A stretch of 33,271 bases of DNA from a virus. Made by a program: the position numbers and the translations under genes. The stretch is taken from positions 1 to 33,271 of the IMG/VR virus record IMGVR_UViG_3300032898_000490. The stretch is one strand, 5' to 3'. This document shows, piece by piece, positions 4,441 to 32,073 of this stretch (positions are counted from its first letter, which is position 1; each line of letters opens with the position of its first letter). The notes beneath the pieces are model-generated. The model was not told where the DNA came from. It ran no database searches and saw nothing but the letters and a program-made list of their open reading frames with translations.

Positions 4441-5817
4441 TCACACGCTAACAGCTACCCTATATGCCCGGCCTAGGAATTTAGGGGCCCGGACCGCGAG
4501 CGTGGTGTCACCGATCATTGCGTACGGCAACGTGTCCGGCTGCGCCGTAGTGGGGTAGAGGTCCAGCGGCTTGGCCTCGCGGACATAGGGGCGGCAGACG
4601 TTCCCGCGGTCCCGGCTGATCAGGTAGAGGTTCTCCTGGCCGGCCGCGGGCGGGAGCATCGCCGTGTTGGTGCCGTAGTACTGGGCCGGCAGCACTCCGG
4701 GGACGATGGTGCCGCTGGACTGCTGCGGGATGAGCGCGGTGCCGGTGTCGACGATCTGGTTGGCGATGACCTGGGTGACGCCGTCGGCGGCCAGGCCGAC
4801 AGTGGAGTCGACGTAGCCGAGAAACGTCTCGGACCCGGATGCCCCGTTCGCGGCGGTGCGCCACACCTTGTACAGCTGCGGGGCGAGGCCGTCCTCGCCG
4901 CTGGGCGGCGTGAAGGACAGGACGACGTTGTTGCCGGTGGTGACGGCCTGGCTGACTTCCTGGGACGGGGCGATCTCGCCCTGCCGCGCAATGATGGCGC
5001 TGACCGTGTACTTGTACGTCCCGTTCAGGGTCGCGGACCCGTTGGACGCGGTGGTGGAGGTGACGGTACCGACGTTGTAGCCGCGCATCTGCACGAACGA
5101 GGACTTCACGATCGGCACGTTGCGGTAGGTCGGGCAGATCAGCCCGGGGGCGACCTCGACCTTGTCGTTGAACCGCTGCTGCCCGCTGAACAGCTGCGCG
5201 ATCTTGCTGTTCATCGTGGACGACCCGATGATCATCCACGTCTCGTCGTCGACAGGCTGGGAGGCGTTCGACTCGACCATGTCGATCAGCTCGTCGAGGG
5301 TGGCCTGGGTGAGGGTGTTGCCGGCCTTGTCGATGACGTTCTGGGTGCCGCCAGAGAACACGTTGATCTGCGTGTCGAGGCCATCGAACTGGGGCTGCGC
5401 CCCGTTTAGGGTGGCGGCGGCGTTGCCCCAGCCGATGAACGTCTCGATGTCCCAGTAGTAGCCCTTGATGGACCCCTGGATTTCTGTCTGCCGCAGGTCG
5501 CCGATGAGCTGGCGGGTGACCTCCTGCGCGTAGCCGCTCACCGAGCCGACGCTTTCCACGTGCTTCATCTGGAACTGGTTCTGCACGTACGTCGAGCTGG
5601 TGACCGGGCGGGCTCCGCCGTCCGGGACCGCGCCACCGCTGGGAACCGCAGTGCGCTGGTTGAAGTAGTAGATGTCGGTGTTCCACGGCTGCATCGGGAT
5701 GGCCCGGCACAGGGGGGCATAGCGGCGCTGGTATTCCACCAGTACCGGGTCGATGATCTTGGGTACGAGGGCGCTGGCGCCTGCAGCGGTTAGCGCCTCT
5801 CTCAGTTCGGACGGCAT
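4441..5817 (-). CDS. major capsid protein with inserted Ig-like domain
   Basis: This 458-residue protein is read as an HK97-fold major capsid protein. An N-terminal helix/arm (MPSELREALTAAGASALVPK) is followed by a long strand and spine region (PVTSSTYVQNQFQMKH, then VTRQLIGDLRQTEIQ), and a C-terminal P/A-domain ending MIGDTTLAVRAPKFLGRAYR. Residues about 250-360 form an extra beta-rich segment (NGTYKYTVSAIIARQGE, NNVVLSFTPPSGED, YKVWRTA) that looks like an Ig/FN3-type surface domain inserted in the fold. The ATG at 5817 was chosen for its GAGAGGAGG ribosome site; a further 20 residues are open upstream. It follows the protease/scaffold gene, the classical order. Confidence 0.85.
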   Translation of the reverse strand: MPSELREALTAAGASALVPKIIDPVLVEYQRRYAPLCRAIPMQPWNTDIYYFNQRTAVPSGGAVPDGGARPVTSSTYVQNQFQMKHVESVGSVSGYAQEVTRQLIGDLRQTEIQGSIKGYYWDIETFIGWGNAAATLNGAQPQFDGLDTQINVFSGGTQNVIDKAGNTLTQATLDELIDMVESNASQPVDDETWMIIGSSTMNSKIAQLFSGQQRFNDKVEVAPGLICPTYRNVPIVKSSFVQMRGYNVGTVTSTTASNGSATLNGTYKYTVSAIIARQGEIAPSQEVSQAVTTGNNVVLSFTPPSGEDGLAPQLYKVWRTAANGASGSETFLGYVDSTVGLAADGVTQVIANQIVDTGTALIPQQSSGTIVPGVLPAQYYGTNTAMLPPAAGQENLYLISRDRGNVCRPYVREAKPLDLYPTTAQPDTLPYAMIGDTTLAVRAPKFLGRAYRVAVSV

Positions 5818-5956
5818 TAAGGGCCGCCTCCTCTCGGATGAGTGAAGGTCGGCCATCGCTGCCAGGCGCGGCACCAGCCGGGACGGCTGGCGGCCAGGGT
5901 TCAGTTGCGTTTCGGGTGGTCCCGGGGCCAGGGCAGTGCCCCGGGACCGGGAAGGG

Positions 5957-7909
5957 TCAGCCGATCAGGTCGGCCCGGTCCTTCAGGACGTGCCGGACCA
6001 GCACCGGGTTCGCGTACTGCTCCAGTTCCTCGCCGGTGAACTCGTGCAGCGGCTTGTCCGGCCACTCCATGGGCAGGCCGAAGCGGTTCATGCCCGGCTC
6101 GCCCCCGACCTTGACGCCGGAATGCTCGTTGACCTCGCCGGACGGGGAAAGTCCCTTGCGGCCCGGCCCCCCGCCCTGCTCGGTGATCTTCTGCCGCTCG
6201 ATGACCATCTGCGCCTCGACGATCCTGGCGATGCGCTGGTCCTCGGTCTCCGTGACCGGGGCCGGCGTGAGGGCGGCGACCTTCTCGGCGACGATCCGGG
6301 CGATCCGCTCGTCTTCCGTCTCGGTGACGGCCGCGGCGGCAGGCGCCGCGGACTCGGCGGGAGCGGCTACGGCGCCCCTCTTCGCGGCCTTGCGGGCCCG
6401 GCGGGCCGCCTCGGCCCGCTCCAGGGCAGAGGCGATCATGCCGTCCACGTCGGCCTGGGTGAAGGTGGCGGCCGGTGCCTGCGCGACCGCCTCCGTGGTG
6501 GTGGTGCTCTCGCTCACGGGAGCCTCCGTTTCCTCTTGGCGCTCGGCAGCCGCTGGGGGTGCCGGTTCCTCCTTGTCGGTTGCCGCCTCGGTGACGGCAG
6601 GTGCGGATGCCCTCATCTCCGCGATGACGGCATCCGGGTCTTCTGCGGACTCCCCCCGGAACGCCGCGGCGAGCCGGGACACGAGGGAGTCAATGGCGTC
6701 GCCGCTAGTGACCTGGGCCGCGTCGTCATCGGTGTCCTCGGCATCGGCGCCAGCGACGTCAATGTCGGCGTCCATGTCCGGGTCGAGGGACATCAGCGCC
6801 AGCGACGCGCCCTTGCAGGCCTGGGCGAGGATCACGCACAGGTCGGCCGGGTCCAGCTGGTAGGAGCAGATCGTGACCGTGGTCGGCCCGTTCGTCGCGG
6901 ACAGGCTGTAGGACCCGGCGCACTCCGGGTCCATGCCCGCGTACTCGGCGATCGCCTCGGTGATCTCGACGGCCGGGTCGACGCACCAGCCCTCGGCCGC
7001 AGGGGTGATCCCGAACTTCTTCAGCGCCGCCCGGATGCGATTCTTGACCCGCTTGAGCTGTGCCGCGCTGTAGAACTTCTGGTTGGCCGGCTTGTTGATG
7101 TAGCTCCAGGCACTCTTGGCGTGCGCGGCGGTAGAAAGGTCGTACCTCTGCTTGTTGTCCGACTGGTAGCCAGGATCTGCAAAGGGCCTGCCCGAGTCGT
7201 CCTTCAGGCCAGAGTCCCGCTTGGACAGCGGAGGCGTCCCCGCCTCGAGCACGGCGCCCGGGGTGCCGAGCATACCGCGCAGCGCCTCCCGGATGCCCTC
7301 CGGCACGGCCGGGACGGCCGGGATCGCCGGGGAGGGCGGGGTGGCCTCCTCAGAGATGACGGTTTCCAACAGCGCCTCCGGTGCCGATTCCGAGATAGTG
7401 AAGGTCTCGCCGGTCTCGCCGTCACCGGCGTCCGCGTAGCGGAAGGAGTCGACCCCGGCGTCATCGACGCCCGGCTCGCTCGTCCAGTCCAGGCGCCCGA
7501 TCTCAAGGTCGCTTCCGGCTTCCACGAGGCCCCCGTCAGGGCCGCGCTCGCGGCGGGACCCGCCGACCCAGTTGCCGCGGATCGAGACGCCGCGCAGGAA
7601 CGCCGGCTCCTCGCCCTCGGGGTTCACCAGGCTGGCGATGTCCCGTCCCGTGCCCGTGTCGGCGATCGCGGCGACGTAACGGGCAGAGCCGTCGTCTTCC
7701 TGCCAGATCCTCGTGACCCTGCCGACGAGTTCCCGGGTGTTGGTGGTCTCGTGGCGGGTGTACATGCCGATCGGGCGCCTGCCCTCGGCGATGCGCTGCT
7801 GCGCCCGCTTGACTGCCCGGCTGATGGTCTCGCGGGTGTACAGCCTGTTGTTCCGGGAGACGCCCGGCGCGAGCGCTACCCCGGAGACGTAGGCGAGTGC
7901 CCTGGCCAA
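5957..7909 (-). CDS. capsid maturation protease with scaffold-like C-terminus
   Basis: This 650-residue protein begins like phage prohead proteases of the capsid-assembly type: GVALAPGVSRNNRLYTRE at about 9-26, MYTRHETTNTRELVGRVTRI and FLRGVSIRGNW further on. Around residues 275-325 lies a small domain, AAHAKSAWSYINKPANQ to NRIRAALKKFG, common in actinophage proteases (I believe the DUF6582 type). The rest is acidic, Ala/Glu/Pro-rich, and includes a coiled-coil repeat (TETEDERIARIVAEKV and TETEDQRIARIVEAQM), as expected of a scaffold built onto the protease. It would cleave itself and the capsid protein during head maturation. It lies immediately upstream of the capsid gene. Confidence 0.8.
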   Translation of the reverse strand: MARALAYVSGVALAPGVSRNNRLYTRETISRAVKRAQQRIAEGRRPIGMYTRHETTNTRELVGRVTRIWQEDDGSARYVAAIADTGTGRDIASLVNPEGEEPAFLRGVSIRGNWVGGSRRERGPDGGLVEAGSDLEIGRLDWTSEPGVDDAGVDSFRYADAGDGETGETFTISESAPEALLETVISEEATPPSPAIPAVPAVPEGIREALRGMLGTPGAVLEAGTPPLSKRDSGLKDDSGRPFADPGYQSDNKQRYDLSTAAHAKSAWSYINKPANQKFYSAAQLKRVKNRIRAALKKFGITPAAEGWCVDPAVEITEAIAEYAGMDPECAGSYSLSATNGPTTVTICSYQLDPADLCVILAQACKGASLALMSLDPDMDADIDVAGADAEDTDDDAAQVTSGDAIDSLVSRLAAAFRGESAEDPDAVIAEMRASAPAVTEAATDKEEPAPPAAAERQEETEAPVSESTTTTEAVAQAPAATFTQADVDGMIASALERAEAARRARKAAKRGAVAAPAESAAPAAAAVTETEDERIARIVAEKVAALTPAPVTETEDQRIARIVEAQMVIERQKITEQGGGPGRKGLSPSGEVNEHSGVKVGGEPGMNRFGLPMEWPDKPLHEFTGEELEQYANPVLVRHVLKDRADLIG

Positions 7910-12886: not shown

Positions 12887-13125
12887 GTCCTTGAGGCTCC
12901 TGCCGGGGCTTCCCCGTAGGCCTCGCGGCGCGCCCGCTGGAGAGTCCCGATCAGCCGGTCAAGGTCAGCGGCGTCGAACTGGGGATCGGCGCGCATCCCG
13001 GCAGGCGCGCTGGCCCTGTCGATGCTCACGTAGACGACCGTTCCGACGTAGCAGAAATCCTCGCCCCAGACGACCTCGAACTCGACTCCGTCATTCTCGC
13101 GGGTCTTGAGTGCCTCTCTTGGCAT
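12883..13125 (-). CDS. small hypothetical protein
   Basis: This 80-residue protein (MPREALKTRENDGVEFEVVW...) begins with a beta-rich segment (FEVVWGEDFCYVGTVVYVS) and ends with a helix (AADLDRLIGTLQRARREA). It overlaps the next gene by 4 nt. It is the first coding gene downstream of the odd tRNA-like sequence. Function unknown. Confidence 0.55.
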   Translation of the reverse strand: MPREALKTRENDGVEFEVVWGEDFCYVGTVVYVSIDRASAPAGMRADPQFDAADLDRLIGTLQRARREAYGEAPAGASRT

Positions 13126-13153
13126 GCTCTTGAGGCTAGCCGGTTCCCCTTGC

Positions 13154-13283
13154 TGCCGTTGCCCCGATTTGAACGGGGGTTTCCGTGCCGGGGGCCGTTT
13201 GGGTTCGGGATCGTTCGCGACCGTTCCCAGGGGACTCGAACCCCGCCGCTCACGGCGTCCTAGGCCGGCTAGACGACAACGGC
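13154..13283 (-). tRNA. tRNA-like gene with 63-nt anticodon loop
   Basis: Read on the minus strand, 13283-13277 (GCCGTTG) pairs perfectly with 13161-13155 (CAACGGC), followed by discriminator A. T8 and C9 come next, then an 18-nt D-arm (13274-13257) with GTCT/GGAC stem and the conserved A14, GG and A21, then G26. The anticodon stem CCGTG (13255-13251) pairs with CACGG (13187-13183); a 4-nt variable loop AAAC follows, then the T-arm CCCCG-TTCAAAT-CGGGG (13178-13162). All helices of a class I tRNA are present, but the anticodon loop is 63 nt (13250-13188) instead of 7 and does not start with Y32-U33. The insert itself holds a T-arm-like hairpin, GGGG-TTCGAGT-CCCC. It could be an intron-bearing tRNA, a disrupted tRNA or a tRNA mimic. 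CCA is not encoded. No anticodon can be assigned. Confidence 0.6.
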
Positions 13284-13532
13284 ATGAGCGCGCGGCGACC
13301 GGGACCCGTTAGGGCTCTTCACCTCTCGGCTGGCCGTGCCCGGTTCTCTACCTAGCCCAAGGCCGCGCGCTGCTAGCCTGCCGGGCGGCCGGCGGGCCCG
13401 TCCAAGTCGCTCTCTGCCAAGCCACCCCGGAGGGTGGCGCACCGCCGCTCTAGGCGATGGGAAACGGAGTTATGCCCGCTCCAGGCAGGTTGCCCTGCCC
13501 TACCTGCGACTCGAACCGCCCGGCAAGTCTTT
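13284..13532. other. non-coding stretch beside the tRNA-like gene
   Basis: No convincing protein gene lies between the tRNA-like sequence and the membrane protein gene at 13533. Frames here are short or Arg/Pro-rich. A 6-bp hairpin, ccaccc-cgga-gggtgg, lies near 13421-13436, and a T-arm-like fragment (tgcgactcgaaccgc) near 13505-13519 lacks a matching acceptor stem. It may be the leader of the tRNA-like transcript. Confidence 0.4.
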
Positions 13533-14442: not shown

Positions 14443-14738
14443 TCGGCTCGTTCCGGCCAGTGCCAGGTGCCACCAGCGTGGTCACGTTCGTCCTGGCAGA
14501 CGGTTTCGCGGAAGAACATGCCACTGGGATTGAGGACCGCCAGGCCTACCCAGCCGGCCCCAGGGGGGCACTCCGGGTCTGGTGGCGGGTTCTGCTCGTC
14601 GTAGGTTGCCGTGACGATGGCTGCCCGGCACTGGCTTGTGTACGCCTGCGTGCCGTCAGGCCGCACGGGGCTTCCGTGGGAGGCGTAGTGGACGCTGTCG
14701 CCGATCTGAGGCTCGCGGCCGGGCATCGTGGTGCTCAT
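14439..14738 (-). CDS. hypothetical protein, possibly SH3-like
   Basis: This 99-residue protein begins MSTTMPGREPQIGDSVHYAS. It has a beta-strand pattern (GDSVHYASHG, CRAAIVTATYD, GWVGLAVLNPSGMFF) like small SH3-type barrels found in actinophages (the IGD.VHY...G opening recurs). The end is HAGGTWHWPERAE. It is coupled to the gene downstream. The fold suggestion is inference from pattern only. Confidence 0.6.
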   Translation of the reverse strand: MSTTMPGREPQIGDSVHYASHGSPVRPDGTQAYTSQCRAAIVTATYDEQNPPPDPECPPGAGWVGLAVLNPSGMFFRETVCQDERDHAGGTWHWPERAE

Positions 14739-14739
14739 T

Positions 14740-15081
14740 TCAGCAGATTCGCTGGAGGAAGCGGCAGCCGATCATCGTTCCCTCGCTGTTGCGGACCTCG
14801 ACGTACGGGGCGAGCAGGTCGTCCCGGCCGCGGGCGGCCAGGGCCACGACGAGGGACACGATGTAGTCGGTGCCGGGCTGCCGCTGCGGCAGGCCGCTGA
14901 CATGGCCGTACTCGACAAGCTCGTAGCTCCGTCCGCTGTGCGGGGACAAGTTGGTGCCCAGCTCGATCACGGCGACCCGGGCTACCGTGCCCGATGGCGG
15001 GATGACCTCGGCCGGGCCGTCATCAGCCTCGCGGTCACGGTAGATGGCGATCGGGTGGGGCGTCAGGTTGACGAGGCTCAT
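14740..15081 (-). CDS. LTPH-type small hypothetical protein
   Basis: This 113-residue protein starts MSLVNLTPHPIAIY. It belongs to a recurring bacterial/phage family with an N-terminal NLTPH.I.i motif, a TVARVAV strand and a YIVSLVVALAA...R.D...P segment. The family has no function I can name. Its start overlaps the stop of the exonuclease gene by 4 nt, so the two are translationally coupled. Confidence 0.65.
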   Translation of the reverse strand: MSLVNLTPHPIAIYRDREADDGPAEVIPPSGTVARVAVIELGTNLSPHSGRSYELVEYGHVSGLPQRQPGTDYIVSLVVALAARGRDDLLAPYVEVRNSEGTMIGCRFLQRIC

Positions 15082-15608
15082 GCGCTGGCCCGCTCACGGA
15101 GCCAGGAGAGCCGGGCCGCGACCTCGCGGGCGTCGTGGAGCGCATTGTGCTGGGCGCCGCCGGCAAGTGCCGGGAGCGCCGGGTTCCCGAGCCGCTCGGC
15201 TTCCTGCCGCAGGTCGTTCGTCCACATCGGGATGCCGTCAGGCAGGCTGATCATGGGGCCGAACAGCTGGGCCAGGGCCACGTGGTCGTAGCTCGAGTAC
15301 CACGCCCAGAGCTGGGGGTCAGGCACGCCGAGGATGAAGTCGCGGACCTCGCGGGCGATCTGCGCCCGGGTCTTCACGTGCCTGAAGTCGCGGTGGCCCC
15401 GGTCCCAGAGAAGGGGGGCGCCGCCCCGCAGCGGCAGGGACGGCACGACGTTCGCCCGGAGCCACTGGTGAGCCTCGATCCGGTCCAGGGGCATGTCGAG
15501 GCTGACCGCGTAGTACTCATTCCCGTCCTCGCGGACCATGCCGATCGAGATCAGCTCGATCGTCTTGCCGTCCTCGAGGAACTCCGTGTCATAGGCGATC
15601 GAGGTCAT
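15078..15608 (-). CDS. RNase AS-like DEDDh 3'-5' exonuclease
   Basis: This 176-residue protein has the DEDDh exonuclease pattern. YDTEFLEDGKTIELISIG near residues 6-23 gives the first Asp and Glu; WAWYSSYDHVALAQLFG supplies a further Asp; HNALHDAREVAARL gives the final His and Asp. The opening closely resembles actinobacterial RNase AS (Rv2179c family), which degrades polyA-containing RNA 3' to 5'. The ATG at 15608 was chosen because it overlaps the stop of the preceding gene; the longer open frame upstream is antisense-like. Alternatively it may act on tRNA or DNA ends. It is the best-defined enzyme of the accessory island. Confidence 0.75.
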   Translation of the reverse strand: MTSIAYDTEFLEDGKTIELISIGMVREDGNEYYAVSLDMPLDRIEAHQWLRANVVPSLPLRGGAPLLWDRGHRDFRHVKTRAQIAREVRDFILGVPDPQLWAWYSSYDHVALAQLFGPMISLPDGIPMWTNDLRQEAERLGNPALPALAGGAQHNALHDAREVAARLSWLRERASA

Positions 15609-15997
15609 CAGGTCACCGGGTGGATCGACGTGATCATCGGGGACGGCGGCGCGGTGGCCTGCCGGGCGATCACGGACAGGTCCCCGATGAGCCGGTCGAC
15701 CCGCTGCCGCTCGTCGTCGTAGTCCCGCCGTAGCGCCCGGGTGTCCTCGGTGCCGCTGTAGTGGCGGGTGAGCGCCTCGAGCAGGGCGCGGGCCTCGCCG
15801 TCGGTGATGGTGAACGTCGGCTGCACGTCGGAGCATGGCTCGACGTCGTGCACCTGGCGGATCAGGGTCTCCCCGTCATCGTGGACGGCGAAGTGCAGCA
15901 CCGAGTAGGGGCCGTTGTCCGCATGGCGGTAAGCCAGGGTGACGGTGACTGAGTCCGGGGACCACCCTGACTGGTGAACGTGGGCGGTGACCGTCAC
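15608..15997 (-). CDS. hypothetical protein
   Basis: A 129-residue protein starting with GTG (VTVTAHVHQSGWSPDSVTV). It has a beta-rich first half (VTVTLAYRHADNGPYSVLHF, TFTITDGEARALLEAL) and a helical second half (ALRRDYDDERQRVDRLIGDL). It could be a small dimeric regulator or accessory subunit of the neighbouring exonuclease; there is no direct evidence. Overlapping stops and starts couple it to both neighbours. Confidence 0.55.
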   Translation of the reverse strand: MTVTAHVHQSGWSPDSVTVTLAYRHADNGPYSVLHFAVHDDGETLIRQVHDVEPCSDVQPTFTITDGEARALLEALTRHYSGTEDTRALRRDYDDERQRVDRLIGDLSVIARQATAPPSPMITSIHPVT

Positions 15998-17257: not shown

Positions 17258-17664
17258 GCGGCCCCCAGGCTGTCGAGCCACGCCGATACCTGCTGGCAGT
17301 GGGCCAGTTGCAGCCCTTCGCCAGGGTGGACCTCAACCTGCAGCGTCGGCTCTCGCCTCGCCGCCGCCCACGCGCAGGCCTCCGGGGCGAACCAGTCGTC
17401 AATCCACGCCAGCGGCCTTATGCCGCACCACTCCCGGACGCCCGGCAGCTTCACCAGGCAGGGAAACTCGATCACCGCAAGCTCCGGCAGGCCGATGCGC
17501 GGTCCGATGTGCCAGTTCGCCGACTCGCCCCAGCCTGACGACGCCCACACGAGCTCGGCCCGGCCGGCGAGGGACAGGAGCCACTGCCCGTAGTCCGGCT
17601 TCAGCCACGGGAACAGCACGCCGTCCACGTCAAGGGCGATGACTGGGCGCCTGTCAGGCTGCAC
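17254..17664 (-). CDS. small HAD-like hydrolase
   Basis: This 136-residue protein has HAD motif I (VIALDVDGVLFPW), a Ser/Gly segment VWASSGWGESAN in the place of motif II, and an acidic motif IV, LAWIDDWFAPEA. It is shorter than typical HADs and lacks a clear motif III Lys and cap. Such minimal HAD proteins are common in actinobacterial mobile elements. The GTG at 17664 overlaps the portal stop by 11 nt, so it is probably translated by coupling to portal. A second HAD-like gene lies at the far end of the island. Confidence 0.65.
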   Translation of the reverse strand: MQPDRRPVIALDVDGVLFPWLKPDYGQWLLSLAGRAELVWASSGWGESANWHIGPRIGLPELAVIEFPCLVKLPGVREWCGIRPLAWIDDWFAPEACAWAAARREPTLQVEVHPGEGLQLAHCQQVSAWLDSLGAA

Positions 17665-20596
17665 GCTCGCCCTTGCCCTGCGACATGGCCATGACCTGCC
17701 ACGGCCCCTTCCCGGCGCTCACCTTGCCGGCGAACGCCCAGATCGAGTCCATGCCCTCGGCCTCTGCGGCGAGGAACCGGTGGTGGCCGTCGGCGATCAG
17801 CCACTTCTTGCCGTCCGGCGTCCTCACCAGCACGACGGGCTTGGGCTGCTCACCGGCGGCGAGCTTCTTGCGGAGCTTCTTCCTGGCCTTGGCGACACGG
17901 CCTGGCTGATGCCATGCCTGCCACTCGCCGCGGTCGGAGGTGTCAACCTGGTCCAGCGGGACCCGCTTCGGCCCGGACCACGAGACGTCGTCCTTGACCC
18001 AGGCGATCGCCGACGGCGGGAAGTCCCCGGCCAGCTGAGCGTAGACGCGATCGGCGGTGCCGGCGGTGGCCTCGGTGACGGGCAGCACGGCGAGGGCCTC
18101 GCGGACCCGCCGCCTGTACTCGATCATGCCTGCGGCGACCGCCTCGGCAGGCATCGGCGGCGTCTCGCCTTCTGGGGCACCCGCAGGCTCTTGCCCTGGC
18201 TGCATCGGCTCCCCGCCGGGCGTTTCCTCCCCGGCCGCGACCGCCGGGGCACCCTTCGCGGCGATCGACGCCTCCGACATGCGGGCCATATCCGCCCACA
18301 AGACGAGGTTCTGGCGGTCGACCAGGACAGGGTCGTCACCGCCGTCAGTCGGCGGCTCGCCGATCTCAGCACGGTATTTGTTGAGGGTGTTGCCAGTGAA
18401 GTACACGGTGCCGTCACGGCGGGCCATCCAGCTCTGGTTGCCTGTGCGAGGGCACCAGACGGTGCCCTCGTACACGACGCGCTCCGCCACGGCGTCCGGC
18501 GAGCCTTGCGTGATTGCCTGAAGCGGCCTTACCCCGGTCCGCTTGCTGACGTTGACCTTCCACATCCGGTAATGCGGCCGCTCGCTCTTCCAGAACTGGT
18601 AGATCGTCGCGGCGCGGCCAGCGAGGACGCAGGCTAGCTGGAACTGCTCCGCAGCGCGGCGGCGCTTCTGGGTGAGCGTCCGCTGGCCACCCTGCGAAAT
18701 GTTCCCGTCAGCCATGATCGAGACGTCTATGAACAGGTCAAGCTGCTCCTGGGTGAGCGCCATCAGGAACTCGTTCGTAACCACGTGATCGTGGACGACA
18801 TCCCTGAACATCTGCCCGTGCGAGGCGGCAATTCGGAAGTTGCGCGTCCCGTCCGCGCGGGGCTTCGGCTCTGTCCAGGCGCCGGGGTCGCTCTTCCGGT
18901 GGTACCTGGAGCGCTTGTAAGGCGGCCCGAAGAGCTTCTCCAGCGCATACCGGATGCGCGCGATCCCCTCCAGGTTCTTCTGGGTTATCCGGACGAACGT
19001 CTGGCCCTTTTCCGCGTGGCCCTCGGTCCAGAACCAGGCGACTAGCTCCACGAAGGCGTCATCGTAGACGGCCTCAACAGGCAATGTTGCGTTTGGTGCG
19101 GCGGTCAGGACGCGGTCCCAGATCGTCATCGTCTCGCTGGTCACCCAGCGCCGCTTCCACTCCCTGACCTTGCTGCCGGCGGTGTAGTTCTCGACCGGCC
19201 ACCTGTGGTCAACGGTGGTGAGAGACGAGTGCGCCCGCGACCGCAGCCGCATCATCTCCCGAGGTGCGGGCGGGAAGACGCAGACTTCCTCGCACTCCTG
19301 CCATTCCGCGTTGCCGGTCTCGTGGTTAAGGGTCAGGACCATATCGCCAGCATGGAGCGCGTCGTAGGCCTTCCAGCCGTCGCGGGTGAGGATCTCGGTT
19401 TCCTCGTCCGCGCACCAGGCGCCATTCCTCAGCCTCTGGTCACGAATACCCTCGATGACACTGCTGGCCCGGTAGTCCACATCACGGAACTTAGCATGCC
19501 AGCCGTCAATTCCGAAGCCATTGTTGGTAATTGAGAAATTGAACGCCTCAAGCACCAGCTCCGCAATTGGCTGGCACGTGTCGATTTCGTACGTGCGGTT
19601 CTGCTCTTCCCCGGTGCCGCCGCCGAGATTGCCGGACTCTATTACGCCCGCCTTTGACGGGGGGACGCCGAACGAGCTGAGTATCTCGTCGCGGGCCTGG
19701 TCCTTGAAGGCCAGGACGTCGGTGACCTTGCCGGACTGCAGCTCGGTGAGCTTGCCGCCGTTCTTGGTGGTGATCGGCGCGCCGATGTTCCTCGGCCCGA
19801 CCTGCGTGACCATGTACCGGTCGCGCCACCGCTTGACCTCGCTGTCAGAGTAGGAGGCTGGCAGGTCGGCGTGGACCGCCGGGGGCAGTCCCTTCCTGAA
19901 CATCTCCTTGCCAGTCGCCGCGGCGTGCAGCCACGCCGTGATGGGCAGCAGGGCCGCCTGCATCGGGGGAATCCCGAACACCGACGACCGGGGGGCGTCC
20001 AAGCTGACGTGGATGACCTCGCGCGGCTCGAATGTCGCGCGCTGCCCGTAGTCGGTCACCTGGACGTAGGAGGTGACGTCGCCGTGCTCATCAGCGACAG
20101 GGGTAGTGGTGGCGCTGTCCAGGTTGTAGATGGCGACCGGCTGGCTGCCCCACCAGACAACCTCAAGGAACGCGTCACCGAAGACGAGCAGGTCAACGAT
20201 GAACGCGCGCAACAGCTGCCGGATGTTCTGCCGCGGGTTGGTGTAGGCGATCAGCCGCTCGAGCGCCAGCACCTCGGGCGGCTTTTCCGGCTGCTCCTGG
20301 CCCTCGCCGTTGTCGGTGTCCCAGTCCATGACGAGGCCGCCCGCGGTGATGGTCCGGGCTATGGCGTTAACGCAGGCCCAGGCCCAGGGGCAGGCAATAT
20401 AAGCCTCGTACAGTTCCGTCAGGGCAGAGCGGCGGTCGGTCTGGGTGCTCGCCCCGACGCCCGCGGTGTACTCGTCGATCCCGCCTGGCGGGATGCCGCC
20501 CGCGTACCCGCTGCGGCGCACCGCGGATGCAGGGATGGCCCGCTCGGGGGCGGCCTCGGTGACGTCCTGGCGGCGGAACCGGTTCCAGAAGGCCAA
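17654..20596 (-). CDS. portal protein with intein and ParB-like C-terminal domain
   Basis: The 980-residue precursor begins with a portal-type N-terminus (LTELYEAYIACPWAWACVNA) and passes through the core, with LVFGDAFLEVVW, REVIHVSLDAPRSSVFGIPP and ILSSFGVPPSKAGVIE. Its conserved C-terminal motif GAW/TLNKYRAEIGEPP is interrupted between Trp394 and Thr737 by an intein. After the extein a Pro/Glu linker leads to about 115 residues like ParB/sulfiredoxin domains: RVPLDQV, PKPVVLVRTPDGKKWLIADG and HHRFLAAEAEG (DGHHR motif). The start is TTG at 20596 with an aggagg site. The portal is the dodecameric gate through which terminase pumps DNA. The extra domain could bind or cut nucleic acid; its role is inference. 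Confidence 0.9.
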   Translation of the reverse strand: MAFWNRFRRQDVTEAAPERAIPASAVRRSGYAGGIPPGGIDEYTAGVGASTQTDRRSALTELYEAYIACPWAWACVNAIARTITAGGLVMDWDTDNGEGQEQPEKPPEVLALERLIAYTNPRQNIRQLLRAFIVDLLVFGDAFLEVVWWGSQPVAIYNLDSATTTPVADEHGDVTSYVQVTDYGQRATFEPREVIHVSLDAPRSSVFGIPPMQAALLPITAWLHAAATGKEMFRKGLPPAVHADLPASYSDSEVKRWRDRYMVTQVGPRNIGAPITTKNGGKLTELQSGKVTDVLAFKDQARDEILSSFGVPPSKAGVIESGNLGGGTGEEQNRTYEIDTCQPIAELVLEAFNFSITNNGFGIDGWHAKFRDVDYRASSVIEGIRDQRLRNGAWCADEETEILTRDGWKAYDALHAGDMVLTLNHETGNAEWQECEEVCVFPPAPREMMRLRSRAHSSLTTVDHRWPVENYTAGSKVREWKRRWVTSETMTIWDRVLTAAPNATLPVEAVYDDAFVELVAWFWTEGHAEKGQTFVRITQKNLEGIARIRYALEKLFGPPYKRSRYHRKSDPGAWTEPKPRADGTRNFRIAASHGQMFRDVVHDHVVTNEFLMALTQEQLDLFIDVSIMADGNISQGGQRTLTQKRRRAAEQFQLACVLAGRAATIYQFWKSERPHYRMWKVNVSKRTGVRPLQAITQGSPDAVAERVVYEGTVWCPRTGNQSWMARRDGTVYFTGNTLNKYRAEIGEPPTDGGDDPVLVDRQNLVLWADMARMSEASIAAKGAPAVAAGEETPGGEPMQPGQEPAGAPEGETPPMPAEAVAAGMIEYRRRVREALAVLPVTEATAGTADRVYAQLAGDFPPSAIAWVKDDVSWSGPKRVPLDQVDTSDRGEWQAWHQPGRVAKARKKLRKKLAAGEQPKPVVLVRTPDGKKWLIADGHHRFLAAEAEGMDSIWAFAGKVSAGKGPWQVMAMSQGKGERAA
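18389..19414 (-). other. intein with LAGLIDADG endonuclease in portal
   Basis: Residues 395-736 of the portal precursor. Cys395 starts block A (CADEETEILTRDGW), and TVDHRW (461-466) forms block B with its T-x-x-H. LAGLIDADG-like motifs LVAWFWTEGH (518) and LFIDVSIMADGN (621) mark a homing endonuclease. Block F is TVWCPRTGN (712-720), and the C-terminus is VYFTGN followed by Thr737. The penultimate residue is Gly, not His. W466 (B:12), C715 (F:4) and T734 (G:5) match the WCT triad of class 3 inteins, although a Cys is also present at position 1. The flanking extein joins to a conserved portal motif. Confidence 0.85.
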
Positions 20597-20622: not shown

Positions 20623-22269
20623 TCACGCCCACGGCGCCCGCTGCACTATCCCGCGCGGGGCATCATCGTCATCAGCGAACGGGGCGCGCTCCGGGGCGCC
20701 CGCGTCAGGCGCACGGGCGAACGCGCCATGCTGCTCGAGCGGCGTCACGCCGAGGCCATCGGCCGCGCCAGGGGCATCGGGGAGCACGAACTGGGGGCCG
20801 GTGCCGATGTTGACGAGCCAGTACCGGAGGCAGTCTGCGAGGTGATCGGGGGCGTCGGTGTCGGCGTCCTCAGGGTCGCCCTTCTTCGCATGCGGGAGGT
20901 TCTCCAGCTCCCACCACAGCTTCGGGCAGGTGCGGAAGATGTGGATCTTGGGGCAGGTCTTCCAGCCTTGCGCCCGGTGGATCGGGCATGCGGGCGCCTC
21001 GGCGAGGTAGGTATGGATCCGCTGCCATCCGGCGACCCGCGAGTGAGGCCCCTTGCCCGCTGGCGTCAGGGGAACGCCGTTGTCCGAGTAGACGTCGGCG
21101 ATTGCCTTGACGTCGCCGCCCCGGGATGCCCACATGGCATCATCGGCCAGCCGGAGGCTGACGTGCTCGCCGTCGGCCTCCGCAGCGAGGATCCGGCGGG
21201 CCTGCTCGGCCTCGCCGACCTGCGTCTCGTAGATCTCCCGGTAAACCCAGGCGCGGCCATCCTCATCAACGCAGCCCCAGAGGGTCCCCCAGGGCTTCGC
21301 GTAGCCCCAGTCCGTCGAGGTGTACCGCCGCCATGAGGCGGGAAGCTCGAAGGGGTCGATGACGTGCCGGTCCCAGCGGAGGGCCGGGAACATCTGCCCG
21401 GCGAACTGGCTCCAGTCGCCGTCCCGCATCGCCGCGCGCCGGGCCTGGTCAGGGATCGCGTCCAGGCGGCGGAAGTAAGCCGCGTCAAGGAACGGGTTAT
21501 CCGTCGCCTTCGCAGGGATGAACCGGCGGGTCAGCCCGTGATCATCGGTGAGGACGACCTTGCCGTGCTCGGTCGGATCTATGTAGCGGGCCTTGACCTC
21601 GCCATGCGAGGGGCCGCCCGGGTTTGACGTCGACCGGATGCCCAGCACCGGGACGCCCTGCGCCGACCGCAGCCGCTCCAGGGCGATCGCGTCGGTCACC
21701 CCGGGGCTGAGGAGCGTCCTTTCATCGACCAGCAGGAGCTGGTAGGCACCACCCTGCCGCTTTGACGCGTCCTCGAGGCTGTCCATGTACCGGAGGCGGA
21801 TCACTGACCGGTTCGGGAACGTCAGTTCCTTCTCCGTCTTGTTCCACCGGCCGCCGAGGGCCGCGGCCCACGAGATCCGCTGGAACTCGGGATAGACCGA
21901 CTCCGCCAGCTCGTCATAGGTGCGGCGCAGGATCAGCACCCGGATCCCCGGGTGCCTGGAACAGGCCCGGACGGCCTCCATGACGATCGCGCAGGTCTTC
22001 CCGCCCCCGGCCGCTCCGCCGTACAGGACATCGTCCTCGGTCGCTGAGTGGAATAGCTCCTGCGGGCACTGGCCGCACGGCTCCGGCAGCAGTCCGGCGA
22101 CCGCCTCAGTTACCTGCGGGTCGTACAGGCTGTCGACGCCCAGCCGTGCCGCGGCCTCCTTGCGGATCCTGTGCCGCGGCAGGCAGATCGGCTCGTAGCC
22201 CAGGACGTCGAACGCGTCGTCAGGCGGGTCAAGCTGATCGGCCAGCGCCGCGGCGTACGCGTCCGCCAC
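20623..22269 (-). CDS. terL: terminase large subunit
   Basis: This 548-residue protein has an N-terminal ATPase with Walker A GGAAGGGKT (near 84-92), arginine-containing RVLILRRTYDEL, and Walker B LLLVDE. The C-terminal nuclease domain has YTSTDWGYAKPWG, LRLADDAMWASRGGD and DAPDHLADCLRYWL, the acidic residues of the RNase H-like fold. It would cut concatemeric DNA and drive it through the portal. The GTG at 22269 has a gcggagg ribosome site. It follows terS by 17 nt and precedes portal, the classical order. The C-terminal tail is acidic. Confidence 0.92.
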   Translation of the reverse strand: MADAYAAALADQLDPPDDAFDVLGYEPICLPRHRIRKEAAARLGVDSLYDPQVTEAVAGLLPEPCGQCPQELFHSATEDDVLYGGAAGGGKTCAIVMEAVRACSRHPGIRVLILRRTYDELAESVYPEFQRISWAAALGGRWNKTEKELTFPNRSVIRLRYMDSLEDASKRQGGAYQLLLVDERTLLSPGVTDAIALERLRSAQGVPVLGIRSTSNPGGPSHGEVKARYIDPTEHGKVVLTDDHGLTRRFIPAKATDNPFLDAAYFRRLDAIPDQARRAAMRDGDWSQFAGQMFPALRWDRHVIDPFELPASWRRYTSTDWGYAKPWGTLWGCVDEDGRAWVYREIYETQVGEAEQARRILAAEADGEHVSLRLADDAMWASRGGDVKAIADVYSDNGVPLTPAGKGPHSRVAGWQRIHTYLAEAPACPIHRAQGWKTCPKIHIFRTCPKLWWELENLPHAKKGDPEDADTDAPDHLADCLRYWLVNIGTGPQFVLPDAPGAADGLGVTPLEQHGAFARAPDAGAPERAPFADDDDAPRGIVQRAPWA

Positions 22270-30594: not shown

Positions 30595-31038
30595 TCACCC
30601 GCCGACCTTGCGGGAGATCTCCTGCACGATGTGCTCGGCAGGGAAGATGGTCAGCAGCGAGTGCTCCCAGCCTCCCGCCAGAACGAGGATGAACGGGACG
30701 AACGCGGCCAGGTAGGCGGCCTGGGGGCGCGGCACCTTCGCGATCGCCACGGCCACCGACGCGAACAGGGCCGCGCCCGTGATCTCGATGGCGAGGTGGC
30801 CGCCGTTGCCGTGCTGGCCGCCGACCGGGTGCAGCAGCCACGTCAGGAAGCTCTCCACGTAGGAGCCGAGAACGGTCAGCGCGATCGCGCACCCGGCGAT
30901 GTAGGCGCCGGCGATCGCCAGCCGCACCAGCACCGGGTGAGCCATCGGATGCAGGTGGGTGTAGTGGCGCAGCAGGATCAGGCACAAGGCCAGCGTGAAC
31001 ACTGCCGCGCAGGAGATGGCCCACGATGCCCCGTTCAC
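30595..31038 (-). CDS. multi-pass membrane protein (Spd-like)
   Basis: This 147-residue protein has four TM stretches: AISCAAVFTLALCLILL, VRLAIAGAYIAGCAIALTV, AIEITGAALFASVAVAIA and AAYLAAFVPFILVLAGG, with a short C-terminal tail. Small multi-pass proteins of this size (Spd type) accompany traB in Streptomyces plasmids and help the DNA spread through the mycelium. It is the likely membrane partner of TraB. The GTG overlaps the whiB stop. Confidence 0.6.
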   Translation of the reverse strand: MNGASWAISCAAVFTLALCLILLRHYTHLHPMAHPVLVRLAIAGAYIAGCAIALTVLGSYVESFLTWLLHPVGGQHGNGGHLAIEITGAALFASVAVAIAKVPRPQAAYLAAFVPFILVLAGGWEHSLLTIFPAEHIVQEISRKVGG

Positions 31039-31463
31039 GCGGCCAGCCCCTGGTCATGCCGTGACGGCTGCCCCTCGGCGGCCTGCTTGCACGCCCGGCA
31101 CTTCCCGAACCTGAGCGTGTTCCACGCGGTCATCTCGTGAAGGCCAGCCGGGCAGACGGCCGGGGCGCTGCGGGCCTTCAGCCGCCGGCGCTCCCGCTCC
31201 GACAGGCCTCCCCAGATTCCGAACCGCTCATCGTTGGCCAGGGCGTACTCCAGGCACTCGGCCCGGACAGGGCACGACCGGCAGACCCGCTTGGCCTCCC
31301 TGGTCGATCCGCCCTTCTCCGGGAAGAACGCCTCCGGATCCGTCTGCGCGCAGACCGCCTGGTCCTGCCAGGACAGGGTGATCGCCGACGGGAGGGTCAG
31401 CTCCCGGGAGAACAGGGGCCCAGCCGCCCCGGGGCTGAATCCAAGGGGAGAGCGGCGGTTCAC
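31035..31463 (-). CDS. WhiB-family iron-sulfur regulator with C-terminal Cys extension
   Basis: GTG at 31463 gives 142 residues. The WhiB core has four cysteines: WQDQAVCAQTDPEAFF, KRVCRSCPVRAECLEYAL, then the conserved GIWGGLSERERRRLK turn and basic tail. WhiB proteins bind a 4Fe-4S cluster and contact sigma factor. A C-terminal extension carries CPAGLHEMTAWNTLRFGKCRACK, a C...C-x2-C site not typical of short WhiBs. It overlaps both neighbours by 4 nt. It likely regulates the transfer operon or host development. Confidence 0.85.
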   Translation of the reverse strand: MNRRSPLGFSPGAAGPLFSRELTLPSAITLSWQDQAVCAQTDPEAFFPEKGGSTREAKRVCRSCPVRAECLEYALANDERFGIWGGLSERERRRLKARSAPAVCPAGLHEMTAWNTLRFGKCRACKQAAEGQPSRHDQGLAA

Positions 31464-31648
31464 TGGCTGCTCCCCGGCGACGGCGTGAAGGCGCACGTCG
31501 TGCTGCCCGGGCTCGCGCCAGGGGCGTTCGGAACCTGGGACGAGCCATGCGGGCAGATGGGCGTGACGGTCTGGGACTGGCACCCGGCAGCGACCGAGGC
31601 CACGAGCAGCGCTCCGGCAAGCCAGGACAAGGCCAATCGAACGTTCAC
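31460..31648 (-). CDS. small lipoprotein A
   Basis: This 62-residue protein has a signal sequence (VRLALSWLAGALLVASVAAGC) ending in a lipobox AAGC. The mature part is short (QSQTVTPICPHGSSQVPNAP...), with CPHG. It is paralogous to the lipoprotein at 32070-32276 (both C...TVTP...CPHG...VP). It is probably exported and lipid-anchored on the outer face of the membrane. GTG start overlapping the upstream stop. Role unknown. Confidence 0.65.
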   Translation of the reverse strand: MNVRLALSWLAGALLVASVAAGCQSQTVTPICPHGSSQVPNAPGASPGSTTCAFTPSPGSSQ

Positions 31649-32073
31649 TGACCCTCCTCAAGCAGGCCGGCGGCCTCGGCCTTCTCGTATCCGTCGAGCA
31701 GCCTCCCGGCCTCATGGATGGCCGCCACGACCAGCGGATCCGGGAGGGCCGCCGCAGGTGCCTTGTCGGGCAGGCTCAGCCCAGGGAAGTTCAGGCAGCG
31801 GACGCGGATGCAGGCTGTGAATGCGCCCTTGCCGGTGCTCCAGGTCTGGATAGTGCCGACGCGCTCGACCTTGAGCTCCGCCGATTCGCCGTACAGTTCC
31901 CTAGCCTGCTCCAGCGCGGCCCTTTCGAGTGCCGGGATGCCGTCGCCGTACACAGTCGCCTCGAGCACGTCCGGGCCACCCGGACGCCGCTCCTGCTCCT
32001 GGCCGGGCGCCGGTGCCTGCGGGCGCTCCGGGGCCCTGCGAGAGGGCCGCCTGAGGACCGGGCGGCGCCTCAC
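31645..32073 (-). CDS. hypothetical protein between two lipoprotein genes
   Basis: A 142-residue protein starting with GTG. The N-terminus is basic and Pro-rich (VRRRPVLRRPSRRAPE), followed by a compact domain (VLEATVYGDGIPALERAALE, RVGTIQTWSTGKGAFTACIR, DPLVVAAIHEAGRLLDG). No signal peptide is visible. Overlaps couple it to both lipoprotein genes. No family was recognised. Confidence 0.55.
   Translation of the reverse strand: MRRRPVLRRPSRRAPERPQAPAPGQEQERRPGGPDVLEATVYGDGIPALERAALEQARELYGESAELKVERVGTIQTWSTGKGAFTACIRVRCLNFPGLSLPDKAPAAALPDPLVVAAIHEAGRLLDGYEKAEAAGLLEEGQ

Follow-up and report, generated by a model that had tools for sequence, protein, structure and literature searches.

A viral cloverleaf whose anticodon loop spans 63 nt is a probable tRNA-Glu-type relic with two 3' halves

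A tRNA-like element on the minus strand of an IMG/VR virus record (33,271 bases, analysed in full and referred to as the window) is best explained as a tRNA-derived relic of the tRNA-Glu type that contains two 3' halves and would no longer decode (probability about 0.6). It probably stems from a decayed tRNA island. The 5' half and the beginning of the supposed intron align continuously with actinobacterial tRNA-Glu genes, and a second tRNA 3' half, located downstream, completes the outer stems.

Window, gene content and relatives

The gene content of the window (Table 1) suggests an actinobacterial phage. Relatives were gathered via the similarity of their portal and capsid proteins. The nearest was L002 (portal 84%, capsid 83% identical), followed by records of 80-95 kb with lower similarity. 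The portal of the window carries a LAGLIDADG-type, intein-like insert (about 18390-19430) that is missing from the L002 portal. The tRNA-like element is located among late structural genes. An RNase AS-like gene, claimed in an earlier note on this DNA, is real and lies about 2 kb upstream of the element; since the DNA of the relic-free L002 is 79% identical over most of this gene (window 14595-15607), it offers no specific link to the relic. A scan for relatives of an 80-aa protein encoded downstream of the element gave none. The motif AGCCTCA is found at 13131-13137 and about 12894-12900 (minus strand), in each case shortly ahead of where one of two consecutive small genes starts, and also precedes the equivalent gene start in L002 (7260-7266).

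Table 1. Features of the window, with the parts of the tRNA-like element and of the adjacent conserved RNA.
Feature	Position	Strand	Description
WhiB-like regulator	31038-31715	minus	
Terminase	20623-22269	minus	
Portal	17654-20596	minus	with LAGLIDADG-type insert
Rv2179c-like (RNase AS) exonuclease	15078-15836	minus	ORF; Pfam match, E 3.6e-10
Conserved RNA block 1	13374-13525	minus	multibranch fold, closed; far more stable than shuffles (z -4.3 over 13379-13525 of the window; -2.4 in L002)
Conserved RNA block 2	13287-13373	minus	87 nt, 94% identical to L002 7173-7259; abuts relic
Segment missing from L002	13138-13286	minus	149 nt between GCGCGCT (13293-13287) and AGCCTCA (13137-13131)
5' acceptor strand	13277-13283	minus	GCCGTTG; pairs with CAACGGC at 13161-13155 (7/7), imperfectly with 13226-13220
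D arm and 5' anticodon strand	13251-13277	minus	tRNA-Glu type; 24/25 aligned columns as in tRNA-Glu(CTC) of Nocardia and Tsukamurella
D stem	13274-13271 with 13260-13257	minus	GTCT/GGAC; one G-U (T-G) pair
Anticodon stem	13255-13251 with 13187-13183	minus	CCGTG/CACGG
First 3' half (A)	13217-13250	minus	anticodon arm, T arm, acceptor-like strand; tRNA-Glu alignment continues (p 0.0015)
10-nt tandem micro-repeat in spacer	13203-13226	minus	2.4 copies, 85%; slippage-like
Second 3' half (B)	13151-13193	minus	CACGG, V loop AAAC, T arm, acceptor CAACGGC, A, then GCA
Outer T arm	13178-13162	minus	CCCCG-TTCAAAT-CGGGG
Discriminator	13154	minus	A, followed by GCA
Capsid protein	4441-5874	minus	

Anatomy and detection of the cloverleaf

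The earlier note had described a minus-strand cloverleaf with four intact stems and conserved D- and T-loop residues, and exactly this structure was recovered at 13283-13155, with all pairs formed in the acceptor (7/7), D (4/4), anticodon (5/5) and T stems (5/5). The elbow residues (U8-A14, G15-C48, G18G19 with T55C56, T54-A58) are all present by inspection. As had been noted, the anticodon loop is 63 nt long and its first bases are not Y-U, and the hairpin GGGG-TTCGAGT-CCCC (13244-13230) and the GGGTTCG/CGAACCC complementarity reported within it are both there. In the free-energy ensemble of the isolated RNA, pairing probabilities are high for the acceptor (0.97) and the T stem (0.6-0.8), and neither the D stem (0.06 or less) nor the anticodon stem (0.01) is favoured. 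The stability of the fold was no better than that of shuffled sequences (z -0.35).

The element escapes tRNA finders at their default settings and is detected in intron-aware mode. ARAGORN reported zero tRNAs when run without introns and, with introns of 0-120 nt at its default threshold, exactly one in the window, namely the present element with a 56-nt intron. The Rfam tRNA model does not reach E<=10 at this site, and the element stays below the gathering level of the covariance model. A strict scan, which required all four stems to be perfect, a D-loop GG and the T-loop motif and allowed for an insert, matched once in the window and never in the related loci (358 kb) or in simulated order-3 Markov sequence (60 Mb). 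The expectation by chance in the window is therefore about 0.003 or fewer, and a chance origin was rejected: the cloverleaf is tRNA-derived.

A tRNA-Glu body followed by a second 3' half

For comparison, tRNA-Glu(CTC) genes from Nocardia and Tsukamurella plasmids were used. The alignment of the element with these actinobacterial genes runs unbroken from 13277 to about 13225 and crosses the putative 5' splice point, with about 5 nt of the anticodon loop (anticodon included) and 7 nt of the variable loop missing. The match beyond the supposed splice point, covering the first 34 nt of the 'insert', was better than 99.85% of shuffles (p 0.0015), and the alignment of the spliced alternative better than 97.2%. 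The 'insert' thus opens with the tRNA's own 3' half and is not foreign, and the stretch 13283-13217 alone represents a tRNA-Glu body without an anticodon. Half A consists of a shortened anticodon arm (CGCCG-TGAG-CGGCG), the inner T arm GGGG-TTCGAGT-CCCC, whose motif has a p of 0.00065 given the loop composition, and the acceptor-like strand GGGAACGGT. The best Rfam hit at 13283-13217 was mascRNA-menRNA (RF01684), with a sub-threshold score of 14.5 bits (gathering score 42.5). Recognisable tRNA ancestry thus coincides with loss of the decoding parts, the combination that defines a tRNA-derived pseudogene.

The outer acceptor strand and T stem, both perfect, are contributed by half B. Both 3' halves carry AACGG facing CCGTT of the 5' strand. 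Their T stems are opposite in strand composition, which argues against half B being a simple duplicate of half A and against the two tRNAs having been identical. The similarity of half B to tRNA-Glu is weak (p 0.12-0.55). Tandem tRNA-Glu genes were detected by ARAGORN in an actinobacterial (Tsukamurella) plasmid (L022, 595-668 and 738-811).

Comparison with relatives and search for further copies

In L002, the GCGCGCT and AGCCTCA motifs flanking the 149-nt segment are directly adjacent, and the segment is absent as a whole. Neither the D-arm sequence nor the 3' half, used as patterns against viral contigs, recovered a further copy of the relic; none came from a scan of genome contigs with the acceptor plus D arm or from 17 related records. 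BLAST searches of phages and plasmids gave short matches and no relic copy; when four of these matches were analysed with ARAGORN, L021 and L022 proved to be real tRNA-Glu genes, and the other two lacked a tRNA. In the relatives, ARAGORN in intron mode also called a tRNA-Gln (50 nt), a tRNA-Ser (61 nt) and a tRNA-Asp (98 nt); judged from the drawings, these are not comparable, the tRNA-Ser call being a 3' fragment downstream of an integrase.

The adjacent conserved RNA

Directly upstream of the relic lies a conserved RNA of about 240 nt (window 13287-13525, minus strand; L002 6877-7259) composed of two blocks. The nearest alignable flanking proteins of the window and L002 are 35-39% identical, as against the 94% of block 2. 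When the folds of block 1 were compared by hand between the two records, the compatible changes numbered three on both sides of a pair and about five on one side, along with two breaks. There was no match to an Rfam family, GOLLD and ROOL included. Pattern scans for further relatives recovered only L002 and none among the genome contigs, and an RNA model run over 18 records found the window and L002 only. This structured RNA is apparently undescribed, with two sequences being too few for a family claim, and may be the more important lead. A 167-nt insert (7005-7172) splits the blocks in L002, at a place where the window has almost nothing; unlike L002, the window carries the 149-nt tRNA-like segment after block 2.

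Origin of the element and alternative explanations

The simplest account would be two neighbouring, related tRNA genes, the second without its 5' half. A phage would have captured a tRNA-Glu-type gene whose anticodon and variable loop were lost (13283-13217), and half B just downstream (13193-13151), from a second tRNA, is probably the remnant of a tandem neighbour. Because the acceptor of half B complements the 5' strand of the first tRNA, the outer parts join into a cloverleaf whose 'anticodon loop' measures 63 nt. In a transcript, the acceptor/T-arm helix could serve as a substrate for RNase P and RNase Z, and cutting would do no more than set a processing boundary that separates the conserved RNA upstream from the gene downstream; the relic itself would probably have no maintained function. 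This origin is favoured because the D arm agrees with tRNA-Glu(CTC) in 24/25 columns and the alignment continues past 13250, because the spacer repeat is slippage-like, an inner T-arm motif is present and no register provides U33, because the element is absent from the same place in L002 and was not found in the 17 related records, and because tandem tRNA-Glu genes do exist. It is at odds with the integrity of all 21 outer base pairs and of the elbow residues, which goes beyond the upkeep expected of a long-dead gene, and with the differing T stems, the weak tRNA-Glu likeness of half B and the single copy.

That integrity, next to a destroyed anticodon, would be accounted for by a tRNA-like element that dropped decoding and is under selection, be it as an RNase P/Z signal, as a decoy for tRNA-cutting host enzymes or as the structural tail of the conserved RNA. 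Such a role is possible at perhaps less than half the weight of a relic. It fits the acceptor and T stems, which form at high probability in the isolated RNA, and the position of the element, which abuts a strongly conserved RNA block, and it has precedents in a Bacillus cereus pseudo-tRNA within a larger regulatory RNA (PMC3399842) and in phage tRNAs thought to evade host anticodon nucleases through changes in the anticodon loop (PMC10264068). However, L002 keeps the conserved RNA and lacks the tRNA-like part, the D and anticodon stems are not favoured in the free-energy ensemble, and only one copy was found, leaving none for covariation. A more elaborate form is doubtful: the phage RNA would consist of a core that is new, structured and conserved (13525-13287) and of an exchangeable tail shaped like a tRNA. 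In this tail, the elbow and the acceptor arm would be kept for processing by RNase P/Z or to occupy host factors that bind tRNA, and the 63-nt insert would replace the anticodon end and offer two alternative pairings of the 5' strand.

It is quite unlikely that the tRNA fragments are a phage attachment site for integration into a host tRNA gene. The related phage G016 has a tRNA-Ser-like 3' fragment beside a tyrosine-type integrase, but that site is located elsewhere in the relative's genome; the present element lies within late structural genes and contains a full 5' half, not just a 3' end, and no integrase was recognised near 13.2 kb among the subset of ORFs scanned against Pfam and PHROGs. 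In G016 (record of L018, 41.8-43.1 kb), L030 and L035, the fragment just downstream of the integrase resembles an attachment site, and some relatives therefore seem to be temperate.

An assembly or chance artefact is still less probable: the element is a single copy on a metagenomic contig, but the strict scan found nothing in 60 Mb of simulated sequence and the 5' half resembles real tRNA-Glu.

Among the three options of the earlier note, a disrupted tRNA fits best, and the intron is contradicted. The outer cloverleaf has the four stems and elbow residues of a functional tRNA; a 7-nt anticodon loop with U33 is obtained neither directly nor after one removal, as none of the registers (all checked) that trim the loop to 6-9 nt gives U33. 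A true tRNA with a short anticodon-loop intron, spliced by an unknown mechanism, is the least credible explanation, since the ARAGORN call is opposed by the tRNA's own 3' half within the 'intron', an insert (56-63 nt) far too short for group I, the lack of a self-splicing group I or II intron in the region according to Rfam, the lack, by inspection, of a bulge-helix-bulge (the extended helix CGGGG/CCCCG has 5 and 1 unpaired nt at its ends instead of the 3/4/3 pattern), and a 2014 review in which the phage introns known at the time sat in protein-coding rather than tRNA genes (PMC3984707).

Comparison with known systems

The element shows how tRNA finders can come to report an intron in a bacterial virus where there is none: one 5' half and two 3' halves of tRNA genes close a perfect cloverleaf. 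Programs that allow for introns are liable to be misled by chimeras of this kind. Like group I introns in bacterial tRNA genes, the element has extra sequence inside the anticodon arm, but the insert is too short, has no catalytic core match and leaves no exons that restore the anticodon loop. The mascRNA-menRNA family shares the tRNA-like shape and the short anticodon arm; the likeness is one of shape only, this family being eukaryotic and not homologous, with a score far under its threshold. The phage tRNA islands with GOLLD and ROOL (PMC12286853) likewise have sequence of the tRNA type next to a phage RNA that is large and conserved, whereas the RNA of the window, of about 240 nt, has no Rfam match to either and is accompanied by a relic only, the window having no working tRNA. 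The relic resembles tRNAOther of Bacillus cereus (PMC3399842) in being a tRNA-shaped element of mobile-type DNA that is not used in translation and may belong to a larger RNA; tRNAOther keeps a Trp anticodon, whereas the relic has none and carries two 3' halves. The closest likeness is to tRNA-Glu(CTC) of the Actinomycetota, such as the Nocardia and Tsukamurella plasmid copies, in the D arm and the start of the anticodon stem and on into the T arm; from these genes, the relic differs in having no anticodon or variable loop, another acceptor stem and an extra, second 3' half.
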